Part shown: positions 25,928-46,441 of the stretch, one piece after another
Position numbering within the stretch: position 1 is the first letter of the stretch
How the letters are laid out: every line of letters starts with the position of its first letter
DNA from: Halanaerobium hydrogeniformans
Lineage (GTDB): Bacteria; Bacillota; Halanaerobiia; Halanaerobiales; Halanaerobiaceae
Length of the DNA: 64,000 nt
Reading direction: 5' to 3'
NCBI RefSeq assembly: GCF_000166415.1
Contig: NC_014654.1
Span: 186,001 to 250,000 of the forward strand
Position numbers and translations under genes: made by a program
The notes under the pieces: generated by a model
Seen by the model: the letters and a program-made list of their open reading frames with translations, nothing else
Databases searched by the model: none
What the model was told of the DNA's origin: nothing

Positions 25928-28828
25928 ATGAAAAAAATAAGCAAACAAAAGGCCTGGCATAATTTAATAAATTTACCTTTTATGGTAATTTTATTAAATG
26001 AAAAAGGTGATATAGAAGCTATAAATAAAGACTGCAGCACTTTTTTAAATAAAATTTACAATAAAAACAGCTTAGATTGGATATTAAATTTGTCGGCAGA
26101 AGATTTTTTGCTTAAATTGAAAGTTGTTAGTTCTTTTAATAGTCATAATTTTGACATTTTTAATTCTGAGTTTAAGAAAGTACTTAATAAGGAAAAAGAT
26201 TTATTTAAGGCAGAAGTGATTTTAGATAAATTGGAAGAAAATATATATTTAAGTATGAAAATAAAATCATTTACAGAAGGCAGTTTGATTATATTTGAAG
26301 ATATTACGCAAAGAAAAGAAGCAGAACTTTTATTAAAAAAAGAGAAAAATTCATATTTAAATTTAATTAACGGTCAAAAAGAAATGGTCTGCAGATTTGA
26401 AGAGGATACAAGCCTTAGCTTTGTTAATGATTCCTATGCTGAAAATATAGGTATGGCCAAAGAAGAATTAATAGGTAAAAAATTTATTGAATTTGTTCCT
26501 TATGAGGATAAAGAAATAATATATAATATTCTATCTAAAATAAAAAAAGGTGACTTCTCAGAAGAATATGAACATAAGGTTATCAATAATAAAGGTGAGC
26601 TTAGATATCATAAATGGAAAGATTATTCATTATTTAATAAAGAATCTCAAAAGAGGTTCTTTCAGGCAGTTGGACGGGATATAACTCAAGAGAAGTTGAA
26701 AACTAAATTTGCTGAAGCTTTGTTTGAGAACAGTTCTTCTGCTATTGTAATGCTCAATAATAAGCATCAAATAATGAAAGTTAACAAAATATTTGAAAAG
26801 AAATTTGGTTTTAAATCAGAAGAAATTATTGGGGTAAATTTAGATGATCTGCTTGAAAAAAATAAATCTGGTATTTCTGATAGAGCCTTATCAGAAAAAG
26901 TCATTTCAGGCGAAAAGGTAATCACAAAAGCTATCAGGTATGACAGCTCAGGGAAAGCTAGAAAATTTTTGATCAAAGCAATACCAATCAAAATAGAAGG
27001 TGATATAAAAGGTGTTTATGTAATATATGATGATATCAGTAAACAGGAAAAAACTAGAAAAGAGCTGGAAGATACCAAAAAAGAACTAGAAAGCATCTTA
27101 GAAAGTATTGAGGATGGAATAAGTGTATTAAATTCTGATCTAACAATAAATTATACCAATCCCAAAATGCAGCAATGGTATGCTGAGAATAGACCCCTAA
27201 AAGGCAAAAAATGTTATGAGGTATACCATAACAGCCATCAACCCTGTGATAATTGCCCAACGATTAGAAGTTTAAAGAGTGGGAATGTAGAAAGTGAAAT
27301 CGTTAGAGGCCTTAATGGTAAAAGCCAAAAATATTTAGAACTCTATACATATCCAATTATTAATGATGACAGTGGTGAAATTGAAGGTGTTGTCGAGTTC
27401 GTTAGAGATATCACCCAGAAAAAGCAATTAGAAAATAAACTAAAAATAAGAGAAGAACAGTATAGAAAAATATTTCATAAGTCACCGATCGGTATGATGC
27501 TTGAAGACTCAGAAGGGAATATTTTAGAGGTTAATGACAGCCTTTATGAGGTAACTGGTTTTAAAAAACAAGAATTAGAGGGCAGTAGTATTTTTGACAA
27601 ATTGGTTCCTCCAGATCATCAACAAACTGCCAGAGAGAATATAGAAACAATACTTAATAATGAAGAATTTGAGTTTATTACAGAAAATAGAAAACCTAAT
27701 GGAGAAGCATATCATCTTAAACTTAAGGAAACAAAAATAAGTTTAGCAGATCAAAAAGAGGGTATTTTATCGATGCAGTTGGATATAACTGATATAATAA
27801 ACAAAGAAAAAAAATTAGAATATTTAAGCTACCATGATGACTTAACCGGTTTATATAACCGTAATTTTTTTGAAGAAGAACTGCAGAGGTTAGATACAAA
27901 AAGACAGCTACCTTTAACATTAATTTTGGTAGATGCTAATGGTTTGAAATTAATTAATGATACCTATGGTCATTCTACAGGAGATCAATTTTTAATTAAA
28001 ATTGCAGAAGTTTTAAATTCGGTTATGAGAGAAGAAGATATAATAGCCAGGTTGGGTGGAGATGAATTTGTTGTTATTTTACCTAAAACCGATGAAAAAG
28101 ATGCTCAACAAATAGTTAACAGAATATTGGCTACAAGTAGAGAAAAATATATAGAGGATGTTAATCTATCTATTGGTATTGGAACAGCAGTAAAAACAGA
28201 TTGTAATCAGGATATATATGATATTCTCAACCAGGCTGATAAAAAAATGTATCAGGATAAATTAACCAATGGAAGAAGCGAAAAAAACAAATTAATTCAA
28301 AACTTATTAGAAACTCTCGGTGCAAAAAGTAATGAAAGTCGAGAACATGCCGAAAGAATGGCGGAGTTAGCTCTAAAATTGGGAGAAGAATTGAATTTAA
28401 ACAATGAAGATTTAAAAAATCTAATTTTACTGGCGACCATCCATGATATAGGGAAGGTAACAATTCCAGAAAAAATATTAAAGAAAACTGAGAAATTGAA
28501 TAAAAAAGAATGGGAAGAAATAAAGACCCATCCCGAAAAAGGTTATAGAATAGCTCAGGCTACAGATGAGTTTTCTGTAATTGCAAAATTGATTCTTCAT
28601 CATCATGAAAGATGGGACGGTACAGGTTATCCTGGTGGACTTAAAGGCAAAGAAATACCACTTTTAGCAAGGATAATAACTATTATAGATGCCTATGATG
28701 TGATGACAAATGACAGAAGCTATCAAAAATCTATCAGTAAAAAAGAGGCTCTAGCAGAAATCAAAAGATGTTCTGGCACACAATTCGATCCCGAATTAAG
28801 CAAAACCTTTTTGTCGATGATGTTATAG
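25928..28828 (+). CDS. Multi-PAS GGDEF and HD-GYP domain protein (c-di-GMP turnover)
   Basis: Soluble sensor of 966 aa that could both make and break c-di-GMP. ATG 25928 behind GGGGAGGA. From the N-terminus: a PAS-like region to about 125, then at least four PAS domains (about 135-255, 265-375, 385-500, 510-625). The third carries a C-x2-C-P motif (PCDNCPT). A GGDEF domain follows with intact GGDEF near 710 and the inhibitory RxxD site (REED) five residues before it. The C-terminal HD-GYP domain has HDIGK near 839 and HHERWDGTGYPGGLKG. No membrane segment or signal peptide. The same GGDEF/HD-GYP linker (NETxEHAxRM type) recurs in three other proteins here, so they are paralogues. The stop codon lies inside a palindromic repeat. 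Confidence 0.93.
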   Translation: MKKISKQKAWHNLINLPFMVILLNEKGDIEAINKDCSTFLNKIYNKNSLDWILNLSAEDFLLKLKVVSSFNSHNFDIFNSEFKKVLNKEKDLFKAEVILDKLEENIYLSMKIKSFTEGSLIIFEDITQRKEAELLLKKEKNSYLNLINGQKEMVCRFEEDTSLSFVNDSYAENIGMAKEELIGKKFIEFVPYEDKEIIYNILSKIKKGDFSEEYEHKVINNKGELRYHKWKDYSLFNKESQKRFFQAVGRDITQEKLKTKFAEALFENSSSAIVMLNNKHQIMKVNKIFEKKFGFKSEEIIGVNLDDLLEKNKSGISDRALSEKVISGEKVITKAIRYDSSGKARKFLIKAIPIKIEGDIKGVYVIYDDISKQEKTRKELEDTKKELESILESIEDGISVLNSDLTINYTNPKMQQWYAENRPLKGKKCYEVYHNSHQPCDNCPTIRSLKSGNVESEIVRGLNGKSQKYLELYTYPIINDDSGEIEGVVEFVRDITQKKQLENKLKIREEQYRKIFHKSPIGMMLEDSEGNILEVNDSLYEVTGFKKQELEGSSIFDKLVPPDHQQTARENIETILNNEEFEFITENRKPNGEAYHLKLKETKISLADQKEGILSMQLDITDIINKEKKLEYLSYHDDLTGLYNRNFFEEELQRLDTKRQLPLTLILVDANGLKLINDTYGHSTGDQFLIKIAEVLNSVMREEDIIARLGGDEFVVILPKTDEKDAQQIVNRILATSREKYIEDVNLSIGIGTAVKTDCNQDIYDILNQADKKMYQDKLTNGRSEKNKLIQNLLETLGAKSNESREHAERMAELALKLGEELNLNNEDLKNLILLATIHDIGKVTIPEKILKKTEKLNKKEWEEIKTHPEKGYRIAQATDEFSVIAKLILHHHERWDGTGYPGGLKGKEIPLLARIITIIDAYDVMTNDRSYQKSISKKEALAEIKRCSGTQFDPELSKTFLSMML

Positions 28829-37773: not shown

Positions 37774-38677
37774 AAAGTTAATATAATCTCTGAGCCATTG
37801 GGATAAAAAGAGATTCTGGGCAGCATCTTTTTTGCTATCTGATAATCAAATAATCTTTCTGTATGGTGCATGATATATTCAAGGGCTTCATGGGTCGGCA
37901 TCTTATCCCTGTAAACCCTGCTGCTGGTAAGGGCATCAAAAACATCTGCAATAGCAGCTATTCTGATAATTTTTTAGGTTTCTTCTCCTTTTAATCCTCT
38001 TGGGTAGCCGCTGCCATCCCACCTTTCATGGTGAGAAAAGACCATGATTCTAGAGAGGGGGCTTATGCTATCCAATTTTTATAGGTATTCAAAGCCAAGT
38101 TCAGAATGTTTTTAACAATCTCATATTCAGAATCACTTAAAGAACCCTTTTTTTGGAGTATTTTTCCCGTGATTATTGTTTTACCAGTATCATGGAGCAG
38201 TCCTCCCATACCCAGCTTAAATATATCATTTTGGTTATAGCCTAAAATTTTTCCGATAGCTATACAGATCACACCAACATTTAAAGAATGTTCATAGGTA
38301 TAATCACTTGTTTTTTTAAGGCTGTGCAGGTTGAGCAGCACCTCATCATTTAAGATGATTTCTGAACTTATCTCATCTACTAAATTCTTTAAAGCTTTGA
38401 TTTCTACCTCACCTAATCCATCAGATATTTTGTCCAGGGTATTTTTAACGATCTTTTTACCCTGGCGTCTGGTCTGATCTTTGATCACTTGATCTATTTC
38501 TATTTCAGCTGAATATTTATCTTCAACATATAGATGATCTATCCCCAGTTCCAGCAGCCTTTCTTTATAATGGCTTAAGTTTTCTACTCCCTGATTGAGA
38601 AGTATACTACCATTGTCATAGATTGCTTTTGCTAATTTCATATTTTCTGTAATATCTTCTGTTAATATCAGGCGCAT
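37770..38677 (-). pseudogene. HD-GYP phosphodiesterase gene, broken
   Basis: On the minus strand, ATG 38677 opens a frame coding an HD-GYP protein: a short N-terminal domain, then DYTYEHSLNVGVICIAIGKIL and LLHDTGKTIITGKIL. The frame ends early at 38063 after a one-base loss near 38111. The rest is readable in the next frame: ELGFEYL, then stop, then SRIMVFSHHERWDGSGYPRGLKGEE, a second stop near 37972, then IIRIAAIADVFDALTSSRVYRDKMP, ending at 37770. One frameshift and two nonsense codons mean no full-length product. The end overlaps the last bases of the chemoreceptor gene. It is the only stand-alone HD-GYP gene of the region; without it the c-di-GMP balance would lean on the fused enzymes. 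Confidence 0.85.
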
Positions 38678-43605: not shown

Positions 43606-43723
43606 GCAAAACTCGGGCCATAAAAGCAAGTTTTATGTCGAATAAAGTAAAAAATGCAGGATTTTTAAGAGTTAAAGGGAAATTATATAAGTAGAGTACT
43701 TAAATTTATGAAGAGGTGATCAG

Positions 43724-44839
43724 ATGTCCGGAAATATTTACAATGAACTTGTCAACCTAGCAGAAATCACAGCAGCTGCAGCAGCAGAATACAGAGAAAA
43801 GAAAGAAATACTACGAGATGCGGTAAATAAGCAGTTAAGCAATCGAGATGATATTTATGAGCTGATTGGACATAATCCCATCTCTAAAATGCATAATAAT
43901 CATGATAATCATGCCAGATTTATGGCTAATGTTTTTAAGCTCAACAGCTATAAACTGCTTGTCAGAACGGTTATCTGGGTTTATATGACCTATTACAGTC
44001 ACGGCTTCAGCTTCGACTATTTTCCAGCAGAACTGAAAGCGTGGATTAAGGCAATCGAAGAGAAGCTCAGTTCTGAAAATGCAGAAGAGATAATCGAAAT
44101 CTATAATTTTATGCTGAATAATCATCAAAGATTTATTGAATTATCAAGAGAAATTGATAATGATCAGATAGATATTCCGGAAGATATGAAAACAGTATAT
44201 AATTTATTTTTTAAATATCTCCTCAATGGAAATCATCAAAGTGCTTTAAAACTTGCTAAAGAAGAGATCGAGCAAAAAGAAGATTTGCAGCGCTTTTTTA
44301 ATCATATAATTAAGCCGGCAATGTATGAAGTCGGCTTTTTGTGGCAGAAAGGTGCAATCTCGGAGGCTGAAGAACATTTAGCCACTTCGATTGTGGCCCG
44401 GGTAATCTCCGGTCTTTATATCTATGTGATCGATTTAGAAGAAGCTCTTAAAGGTAAGGCCGTTATCTCAGCTGCTGCCAATGAATACCATGAGATTGGT
44501 TCGCGGATCATCGCAGATTCTTTAGAAATGGATGGCTGGGATGTTGATCATCTGGGTGCTGATACGCCTATAGAGGCACTGATAGATTTTTTAAAAATGC
44601 AGCAGCCTTTTTTACTCGGCTTATCTGCTTCGATGGCCTTTAATATAGATAATTTGAATGATACGATCAAAAAAATTAAGGAAAATGAAAAATTGGCTGA
44701 TTTAAAAATCATGGTTGGTGGCAAAGTTTTTAATGAAAATCCTGAGCTCTGGAAAAAAACAGATGCTGATGCCTGTGCACAAAATGGAGAAGAGGCGGTA
44801 GAGATTGCAAAAAAATGGTGGGAAAACTGGGAGGGATAA
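43724..44839 (+). CDS. Cobalamin-binding sensor protein (CarH-like B12 module, no DNA-binding domain)
   Basis: 371 aa. ATG 43724 behind GAAGAGGTGA. Residues about 1-165 are a helical domain of unknown role with a His/Asn cluster (H57, H60, H63 in HNNHDNHARFM) and a YSHGFSFDYFPAEL motif. Residues about 170-245 are the four-helix B12 cap with the CarH-type Wx9EH motif (W207, E217-H218). Residues about 247-365 are the Rossmann B12 domain: the cobalt ligand His is H256 in EYHEIG (ExHxxG), with LGADTP, LSASM and IMVGGK around the nucleotide tail. There is no MerR-type helix-turn-helix and no methyltransferase neighbour. The PAS-GGDEF gene begins 3 nt after its stop, so it probably gates that enzyme by light or cobalamin state. 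Confidence 0.85.
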   Translation: MSGNIYNELVNLAEITAAAAAEYREKKEILRDAVNKQLSNRDDIYELIGHNPISKMHNNHDNHARFMANVFKLNSYKLLVRTVIWVYMTYYSHGFSFDYFPAELKAWIKAIEEKLSSENAEEIIEIYNFMLNNHQRFIELSREIDNDQIDIPEDMKTVYNLFFKYLLNGNHQSALKLAKEEIEQKEDLQRFFNHIIKPAMYEVGFLWQKGAISEAEEHLATSIVARVISGLYIYVIDLEEALKGKAVISAAANEYHEIGSRIIADSLEMDGWDVDHLGADTPIEALIDFLKMQQPFLLGLSASMAFNIDNLNDTIKKIKENEKLADLKIMVGGKVFNENPELWKKTDADACAQNGEEAVEIAKKWWENWEG

Positions 44840-44842
44840 ATT

Positions 44843-45793
44843 ATGTTCGATGATCTTTATTCGAAGTGTCCCTATCCTTTAGATTTATTTTTAGAAAAAA
44901 TTAGTTCTTATCTTCTGGTTAATTTTGATGAGGACTTATATATCAGGGGCTGTAATGAAAAATTTTTAAAAACGGTAAATATGGATAAGCAGGAGATAAA
45001 AAACAAAAAAATGGATGATATCTTTAGAGCTTCCAGCCTAAAAACTCTCGATTTTGATTCAAAAAGGAGCTATCAGAAGGTCAATCTCTGTTTTGAAGAA
45101 GATGTTATAATCGACAGGCTCTATAATCAGTATAATTCATACTTTTTTATTTTAGCAGATGGCTATTATTTGATAGCCAAAGAAAACGCTCCCGATCAGG
45201 GTGAGATAATAAATAAGATCAGTCGTTTAAATAATGAGCTGGCAAATAAGACCAGAGAATTGAGCAGGAAGAACGTTAAATTAGAGAAGGCAAATCAAAA
45301 AATAGAGGAATTACTAAAAACCGATAAGTTGACCGGTTTGAGCAACCGGAGACATTTTATGGAATACTTCGAAAAGATGATAGCCAATGCCAAAAGACAC
45401 TCACTTTCACTTTCGCTGGTGATGTGTGATCTGGACCATTTTAAAAAGATCAATGACAATTATGGGCATGGTGCAGGTGATAGAGTTTTAGAAGAAGTCG
45501 GTGAATTATTGTTAAATGAAACAAGGCAGGGAGATTTAGCCTCTAGAATAGGTGGAGAGGAATTTACGATCATCTTAAATGGGACTTCACTTAAAGAGGG
45601 AAAAAACTATGCAGAGCGGATCAGAAAAAAAGTCAGTAATTTGGAGTTTGCCGAAATCAATAAAAAAGTAACCATCAGCATGGGGATAACGGAGATACAG
45701 GCAGAAGATAATGCCGAAAGCTTTTTAAAAAGGGCAGATAGGGCTCTCTATAAAGCCAAAAATAATGGCAGAAACAGGGTGGAAACCCTTTAA
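44843..45793 (+). CDS. PAS-like plus GGDEF diguanylate cyclase coupled to the B12 sensor
   Basis: 316-aa protein whose ATG lies 3 nt after the stop of the cobalamin sensor and whose ribosome site GGGAGG is inside that gene, a sign of translational coupling. The N-terminal 120 residues look like a divergent PAS (LVNFDEDLYIRGCNEKFLKTVNMDKQ). A coiled coil follows (about 130-155, KISRLNNELANKTREL), then a GGDEF domain with the active GGEEF variant near 238. The usual RxxD inhibitory site is present as RQGD five residues before it. No membrane helix. The coiled coil between sensor and cyclase is the usual dimer-control element, so the B12 protein may act on it directly (inference). Confidence 0.9.
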   Translation: MFDDLYSKCPYPLDLFLEKISSYLLVNFDEDLYIRGCNEKFLKTVNMDKQEIKNKKMDDIFRASSLKTLDFDSKRSYQKVNLCFEEDVIIDRLYNQYNSYFFILADGYYLIAKENAPDQGEIINKISRLNNELANKTRELSRKNVKLEKANQKIEELLKTDKLTGLSNRRHFMEYFEKMIANAKRHSLSLSLVMCDLDHFKKINDNYGHGAGDRVLEEVGELLLNETRQGDLASRIGGEEFTIILNGTSLKEGKNYAERIRKKVSNLEFAEINKKVTISMGITEIQAEDNAESFLKRADRALYKAKNNGRNRVETL

Positions 45794-46441
45794 ATAAAAT
45801 ATTGAATAGAGTCGATTAAAAAGGAAACCCCAAAATATATTAAAAACAGAGAAAAAACTATTATCAATTTATGATAGATGCTGTCATTTAAAAATTTTCT
45901 TCCCTTTGAGATAAAAAAGGCGATCAGGGCATACCAGGCAAAATCGGCAGAAATATGGCCCATAAAAAAGGAAGCAGTAGCCGTATTTCCGTACTGGGAT
46001 GCATTTGCCAGATAGGTCATTCCGATCGTTGCCCACCAGATCGTCCAGTATGGATTGGCGATGCTGATCAGTGCCCCTGGCAGGATCAAAGCTCTTAATT
46101 TTTCTTCCCCGTCTGAGTCTTTTTCTAAAGCTTTTTCGAATGATATCTTTTTACTTAGGGCAGATTTTATCATATCAGCTGCCATCAGGATTAAAACTAA
46201 CCCCCCGACTATTTTGATTACAGCAGCAAATAGTGGGCTGGCAAAAAGGTCTATTCATCTCGGAAAGAAGCAGTACAACCAGAATAAGCTCCAGGATGGC
46301 ATGGCCGGTGATGATCAGTGGACCAGCTATAAAGCCTTTTTGTAGACTGCCGTTGATCACATAGGTTAAAAGCGGACCCGGCATCATGGCTCCAGAAAGC
46401 CCTATTATAAATGAGGAAAAAGCAAGTTCTAATTCAACCAT
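45790..46441 (-). pseudogene. LysE/RhtB-family exporter gene, frameshifted
   Basis: Minus-strand gene for an amino-acid or small-molecule exporter. ATG 46441 opens MVELELAFSSFIIGLSGAMMPGPLLTYV, with the family's GAMMPGP motif in the first helix, but the frame turns into unrelated residues after LLLSEMNRPF near 46250. From there the +1 frame continues as LFASPLFAAVIKIVGG and MAADMIKSAL to the normal C-terminus ending at 45790. One extra C near 46243 would explain it. Both halves keep good membrane segments, so the lesion is recent or a sequencing error. Its tail overlaps the GGDEF gene by 4 bp. Confidence 0.8.

Follow-up and report, generated by a model that had tools for sequence, protein, structure and literature searches.

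A two-gene pairing of a photocobilin-like cobalamin protein with a PAS-GGDEF diguanylate cyclase in Halanaerobium hydrogeniformans and other, mainly anaerobic, hosts

Control of a cyclase by B12 and light has been known since 2024 (PMC10979010). In AbDPcob from an Acidimicrobiaceae bacterium (PDB 8J2Y), a photocobilin with fused B12, globin and cyclase parts, AdoCbl lowers cyclase activity and light lifts turnover more than 10-fold; isolated photocobilin domains also alter the rate of a separate cyclase in trans, via protein contact (PMC10979010). In another photocobilin, AbPcob, a histidine occupies the position of the bilin-contact aspartate and bilin is bound weakly (PMC10979010). The W-x9-EH motif is the signature of light-responsive cobalamin domains, and the pocket that carries it has been tied to the light response in CarH, CtMerR and photocobilins (PMC11796333). 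A 2022 census of c-di-GMP stimuli leaves cobalamin and B12 unmentioned (PMC8846402).

The locus described here lies in a 64,000-nucleotide stretch of Halanaerobium hydrogeniformans DNA (NC_014654.1, 186,001–250,000, forward strand), which we refer to as the window. The organism, a non-motile isolate from Soap Lake, has a genome of 2,613,117 bases and 2,391 protein genes (PMC4237134). Two adjoining genes at window positions 43724–45793, termed A and B, have the following features (all coordinates are those of the window).

43712..43719, + strand: ribosome site of gene A (AGAGGTGA), read from the sequence
43724..44839, + strand: gene A, predicted cobalamin sensor protein, 371 aa, ATG start, intact (AlphaFold2 model, mean pLDDT 94.4, pTM 0.88)
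43766..44167, + strand: N-terminal all-helical NHxNH domain, most likely divergent photoglobin-like, residues 15–148 (model, hhalign)
43898..43912, + strand: N59-H60-D61-N62-H63 motif (alignments, conservation)
44207..44410, + strand: four-helix cap, residues 162–229, B12-binding_2 PF02607 (Pfam E 6e-13)
44342..44377, + strand: W207-x9-E217H218, adenosyl-pocket signature (sequence and family alignment)
44456..44806, + strand: Rossmann B12-binding domain PF02310, residues 245–361 (Pfam E 3e-19)
44483..44500, + strand: E254-x-H256-xx-G259, predicted lower axial His ligand motif (sequence and family alignment)
44830..44835, + strand: ribosome site of gene B, GGAGGG, within the last codons of gene A, read from the sequence
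44843..45793, + strand: gene B, PAS-helix-GGDEF diguanylate cyclase, 316 aa, ATG start, intact
44843..45196, + strand: PAS-like sensor or docking domain, residues 1–118 (PAS_9 E 0.0035, model)
45197..45319, + strand: linker helix, residues 119–159 (LNNELANKTRELSRKN), a single 41-residue helix in the AlphaFold2 model
45320..45778, + strand: GGDEF domain (Pfam E 3e-49)
45524–45535, + strand: RQGD inhibitory site
45551–45565, + strand: GGEEF motif

The stop codon of gene A is separated from the start of gene B by 3 nt, and the GGAGGG site lies 7 nt upstream of the gene B ATG. A preliminary description of this DNA had placed the end of gene A 3 nt before gene B and the ribosome site of gene B within gene A, and both were exact when the coordinates were re-read. 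Translational coupling of the two genes is supported by this layout and by its conservation in relatives (below). On the 5′ side the pair is flanked by a cyclopropane-fatty-acid-synthase-like gene and on the 3′ side by a convergent LysE-like gene, the latter named from sequence alone. The upstream gene is not shared by a more distant relative (locus L008), and the operon therefore probably consists of genes A and B alone. A promoter scan around the pair gave no more matches than shuffled sequences did, Rfam found neither a B12 riboswitch nor any other riboswitch within the window, and identity as a defence system was rejected for want of a PADLOC match. The LysE-type transporter gene itself (45790–46441, − strand) appears to be split into two overlapping frames of 131 and 88 aa; the corresponding gene in a relative (L007) is a single longer open frame of 181 aa that runs off the end of the locus.

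The cobalamin-binding part of protein A has both of the motifs that had been described for it, W207-x9-E217H218 and E254-x-H256-xx-G259. In an alignment of the family (38 rows, of which 24 are members fused to a B12 module), W207, E217, H256 and G259 are invariant across the 24 fused members and H218 is kept in 23. Position 208 is glutamine in protein A and glutamate in 21 of the 24 fused relatives. Of the SignatureFinder elements, GxxW, EH and GxxxP are present in protein A and GxxH is not, the glycine being replaced by Asn253. Judged by sequence, the pocket is of the light-sensing type. Two other B12 proteins of the same genome that were read (L001 and L003) are of the methyltransferase-corrinoid type and lack W-x9-EH.

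Comparison of the AlphaFold2 model with known structures pointed in the same direction. The best VIA match for the cap and Rossmann domains together was SasPcob (8j2w; Z 27.5, rmsd 1.7 over 208 residues), followed by AbPcob (26.2), a methylamine corrinoid protein (23.3), CtMerR (23.3), AppA SCHIC (21.3), AerR (20.7) and CarH (20.2); AbPcob and SasPcob were also among the best phmmer matches of protein A. As modelled, the B12 module is thus closer to photocobilins (Z 27.5) than to CarH (Z around 20). The protein had been called CarH-like, which holds for the pocket motifs and the lower histidine but not for the rest: it has no MerR domain, the residue required for bis-His ligation is replaced by Gln208, and the photocobilin fold is the closer one. 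Membership of CarH itself was rejected, as there is no DNA-binding domain and the NCBIfam CarH model aligns with residues 164–314 only, scoring 47 bits where the cut-off is 400.

The N-terminus of protein A had been presented as a novel His-rich helical domain standing where a DNA-binding domain would be. It indeed carries no HTH or MerR family, and no Pfam family matched the first ∼150 residues in any of the 38 family members. The claim of novelty needs qualifying, since profile comparison suggests a remote relationship to photoglobins and phycobiliprotein-like globins. The domain is helical throughout in the AlphaFold2 model (helices 17–25, 27–39, 53–73, 76–92, 99–114, 117–132 and 134–142) and occurs as a single copy in the H. 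hydrogeniformans genome. N59, H60, N62 and H63 are each found in 37 of the 38 members, a figure to be read with the motif itself having been the search seed. Stand-alone copies of the domain in Desulfobacterota carry NNRNF at this place, so the histidines of NHxNH are not universal. N59 aligns with the bilin-contact aspartate of photocobilins (D270 in SasPcob), and M56 with the bilin cysteine position.

Aligned by hhalign with N-terminal photoglobin-type domains, the NHxNH domain matched across 101 columns with E 9.3e-6 and a probability of 83%. In the shuffle control for the hhalign score of 36.8, the maximum was 21.2 for 60 column shuffles and 18.9 for 60 block shuffles, and the reversed profile gave 12.0; combining the photoglobin profiles into one brought the score to 38.8. 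Aligned directly with the solved photocobilin globins, the match was weak (E 0.0075, probability 5%). Related proteins from other Halanaerobiales and from Azospirillum bear a different N-terminal domain, which matched the photocobilin globins strongly (hhalign E 8.8e-12, probability 97.5%; hmmsearch 5e-8 for SasPcob and 2e-5 for allophycocyanin) and which, on these profile matches, is a photoglobin. The NHxNH domain is most likely a divergent photoglobin relative, ‘globin-like’ here resting on profile comparison and helix layout. A weak PDB sequence match to LH1 beta (E 0.048) was taken as chance.

The product of gene B is a PAS-GGDEF protein, as had been proposed. The GGDEF domain is identified strongly, while the PAS domain is weak in Pfam yet PAS-like in the AlphaFold2 model. 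The metal- and guanine-binding and I-site residues are complete (GGEEF, D196, N204, D213 and R228xxD231), and the catalytic, substrate and I-site residues are invariant in 18 partner proteins, save E239 and F241 in one each. The fold matches PAS-GGDEF-EAL proteins, phytochrome-cyclases, LOV-cyclases and SiaD. The PAS part is the least conserved region of the partners (22% mean pairwise identity), with Pfam PAS_8 matched in 9 of 16 of them. The linker helix (LNNELANKTREL), by comparison, shows 44% mean pairwise identity, against 49% for the GGDEF domain, and none of the other five GGDEF proteins in the window has it. Because it is well conserved and absent from those proteins, we consider the linker helix a candidate signal stalk or docking site.

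We looked for the adjacency in other genomes, as the preliminary description had suggested, with a genome-wide scan seeded by the N-domain rather than by its neighbours. This gave 39 loci, mainly in anaerobes: Halanaerobiales, delta-proteobacterial sulfate reducers and syntrophs, Thermodesulfovibrio, an Atribacteria MAG, Ca. Sabulitectum, a gamma symbiont, the phototroph Thiococcus, Bacteroidales and Riflebacteria. In Ilyobacter the pair is located on a plasmid. The next gene was counted at the non-redundant B12-fused loci with readable downstream DNA, 29 in number and from several phyla (L029 and L030 come from the same MAG, and the L048 DNA is too short to judge). The PAS and linker-helix layout of the partner was present in the next gene at all 29. 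Twenty-four of these genes encode GGDEF proteins, two histidine kinases (L043 and L044) and two short PAS proteins (L046 and L047), and the remaining one (L080) is truncated ahead of the output domain. At nearly all 29 loci the two genes overlap or are at most 13 nt apart; at L047 the distance is 99 nt. The base rate in H. hydrogeniformans is 28 GGDEF places among 2,391 protein-coding genes (gene count from PMC4237134), or ∼1.2%. The pairing of a B12-fused gene with a PAS-output gene is not a matter of chance.

Three separate, adjoining genes encode a W..EH protein, a PAS protein and a stand-alone copy of the domain in Bacteroidota, Riflebacteria and some of the Desulfobacterota (L054, L056, L060, L062–L064, L085 and L086). 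That the three modules are fused in some genomes and adjacent in others argues that they work together. The distances of genes A and B among relatives are correlated (r 0.915), which is not taken as proof because shared ancestry confounds the comparison. Two further arrangements were seen. The short PAS proteins (L046, 5989–6660; L047, 6117–6626) consist of PAS and linker helix followed by a short Cys-containing C-terminal domain (IIPICxYCKxIR...SHGICPxC) and have no enzyme. At L050 (1183–2183) and L059, from Desulfonatronum and a Desulfovibrionales MAG, a stand-alone NHxNH gene overlaps an EVE/thymocyte-nuclear-type-like gene by 4 nt and has no adjoining B12 gene.

Six GGDEF proteins are encoded within the 64-kb window, between positions 25928 and 55000, compared with 28 places in the whole 2.6-Mb genome; large PAS-GGDEF genes are thus densely clustered here. 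An HD-GYP-like protein of 204 aa (38063–38677, − strand) seems to be shortened past the HD motif region and is possibly a decayed c-di-GMP phosphodiesterase. No PilZ effector was found in the genome. Three c-di-GMP-I riboswitches were found: one precedes a gene for a long secreted-looking protein (L066), one is near insertion-sequence transposase genes (L067) and one precedes a PAS-GGDEF gene (L068).

The light-type pocket, the intact cyclase and the gene order kept in every readable relative together make a two-protein switch, from AdoCbl or light to c-di-GMP, the best-supported reading, as the preliminary description had it. We think it rather probable that the two genes form such a switch, probably light-responsive and bilin-independent, in which the cobalamin protein gates the cyclase by protein contact. 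In favour of it, too, the genome has two adenosyltransferases (PF01923 and PF02572) that could supply AdoCbl, no heme oxygenase was found in it, and photocobilins provide a precedent for cyclase control both in cis and in trans (PMC10979010). Protein A would bind AdoCbl base-off/His-on, with H256 as the lower ligand and with W207 and E217/H218 covering the adenosyl group, the arrangement known from CarH and photocobilins. The Co–C bond would break under green-to-near-UV light, or when the adenosyl ligand is lost, and the four-helix cap would move; the displaced cap helix, bearing E217/H218, would relay AdoCbl photolysis to the PAS domain and linker helix. As Gln208 stands in place of the second histidine of CarH (H132), and SasPcob has the same replacement (PMC11796333), no bis-His light state is expected, and the light state would be aquo- or hydroxocobalamin as in SasPcob. 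The cap shift would be passed on by contact with the separate PAS-helix-GGDEF partner, where the linker helix would set the register of the cyclase dimer, and the effect of light on the cyclase could be of either sign. The N-domain would pack against the B12 module as a structural, docking or other-ligand part rather than as a biliverdin antenna. The c-di-GMP produced would then be read by the three riboswitches of the genome. AdoCbl binding, photochemistry, contact between A and B and the direction of cyclase control are all inferred.

Several points count against this switch. Effective monomerisation of TtCarH requires oxygen (PMC11796333), which a strict anaerobe would lack, Asn253 departs, in sequence, from the signature glycine of GxxH, and the direct profile match of the N-domain to the solved photocobilin globins is weak. 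In addition, the record titles of several hosts suggest dark habitats, and the signal sensed could be the cobalamin status instead of light. Protein A would then report AdoCbl against other cobalamins and set c-di-GMP accordingly, its light-type pocket merely providing adenosyl specificity. Such a role would suit an obligate anaerobe that uses B12, that gives a higher 1,3-propanediol yield when supplied with it (PMC4237134) and whose genome has the two adenosyltransferases; many of the relatives are from sediment or subsurface anaerobes, again by record titles, and AdoCbl binding by itself lowers AbDPcob cyclase activity (PMC10979010). We nevertheless regard cobalamin-status sensing as unlikely, though worth keeping in mind, given that the W-x9-EH pocket is of the kind tied to light in CarH, CtMerR and photocobilins, that the phototroph Thiococcus has a relative, and that the window is without a B12 riboswitch.

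The other readings are less probable still. A classical photocobilin with two chromophores, whose N-domain took up bilin from outside or by an unknown route and so added red-light sensitivity, would fit the photoglobin relationship of that domain and the occurrence of photocobilins with the AdoCbl domain at either terminus (PMC10979010). It is made very unlikely by Asn59 and Met56 at the bilin-contact Asp and Cys positions, and by the distribution of heme oxygenase, which is missing from H. hydrogeniformans and from 25 of the 26 other host genomes, many of them incomplete MAGs (26 of 27 in all); every HutW/ChuW match was also under the curated cut-off in the 27 genomes, as it was in most control genomes. 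Protein A could also be a methyltransferase-type corrinoid protein with the cyclase gene next to it incidentally, its best NCBIfam matches being MtbC and pyl_corrinoid and its fold similarity to such proteins being high (Z 23). Those matches are sub-threshold, however, at 60 bits against cut-offs of 215–370, and the only gene that might pass for an adjoining methyltransferase is the unrelated cyclopropane-synthase-like one. With the gene pair kept at 29 of 29 readable loci beside PAS-output genes, and W-x9-EH conserved, unlike in the genome's own corrinoid proteins L001 and L003, we see hardly any room for this reading, and identity as an MtaC/MtbC-type protein was rejected on the motif and the partner gene.

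Returning to the bilin-independent switch, a more specific version would make NHxNH a distinct globin-like family, occurring in many anaerobes either fused or as a stand-alone third gene, its bilin site exchanged for that of another ligand or its role purely mechanical, and would make this domain, the B12 module and the PAS-output partner together an undescribed B12 photosensory system independent of oxygen and bilin. We put this forward tentatively, as possible rather than probable. Were the switch to operate as proposed, B12-based control of c-di-GMP by light or AdoCbl would reach strict anaerobes without heme oxygenase, raising the question of how AdoCbl photoswitching proceeds without oxygen. 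It would also be a modular sensor-effector pair of several phyla with swappable outputs (cyclase or histidine kinase), offering optogenetics a naturally split, two-component green-light cyclase. The NHxNH domain would also provide a defined protein family for ligand discovery.

The preliminary description had known of no characterised example of a switch of this kind. In substance this was wrong, given the precedent of AbDPcob, a light-activated B12-globin-cyclase, and the action of photocobilins in trans (PMC10979010). Within the searchable literature, the novel elements are the division of the system between two genes, its spread among anaerobes that lack heme oxygenase, and the NHxNH domain; some of these proteins may be included in the photoglobin paper (PMC8717448).

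Among known systems, CarH/LitR (Thermus thermophilus, PDB 5C8D) shares the AdoCbl pocket motif and the lower His ligand; protein A differs in having no MerR DNA-binding domain, Gln208 for H132 and an enzyme as output. The BBAG-2 clusters (PMC10151467), in which a globin homolog gene lies beside a B12-binding protein, resemble the stand-alone Bacteroidota version. They bind biliverdin, have an RGMC motif and are accompanied by heme oxygenase or a bilin reductase, whereas the system here has an NHxNH motif and is without heme oxygenase. SasPcob (PDB 8J2W/8J2X) is nearest in the fold of the B12 module, with Gln after the pocket Trp in both and the same spacing (W61-E71H72 and W207-E217H218); its biliverdin-contact Asp270 is Asn59 in protein A, and SasPcob-like genes on Streptomyces plasmids stand beside STAS/PP2C genes, not PAS-GGDEF genes. 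One photocobilin-like gene on a Streptomyces plasmid (L074, 2986–6582) stands immediately upstream of a cluster of gas-vesicle genes. In SiaC-SiaD (Pseudomonas aeruginosa, PDB 7E6G), a diguanylate cyclase is likewise controlled in trans by the product of another gene, although SiaC is not a cobalamin protein and there is no PAS domain. AbDPcob likewise combines a B12 module bearing W-x9-EH and (E/D)xH with an additional globin-type domain and a GGDEF output. It does so in one polypeptide, in which the globin follows the B12 module; the present system has two coupled genes, its extra domain is N-terminal and remotely related, and the cyclase brings a PAS domain and a conserved linker helix of its own. 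The pair looks like a split version of AbDPcob with an altered extra domain.
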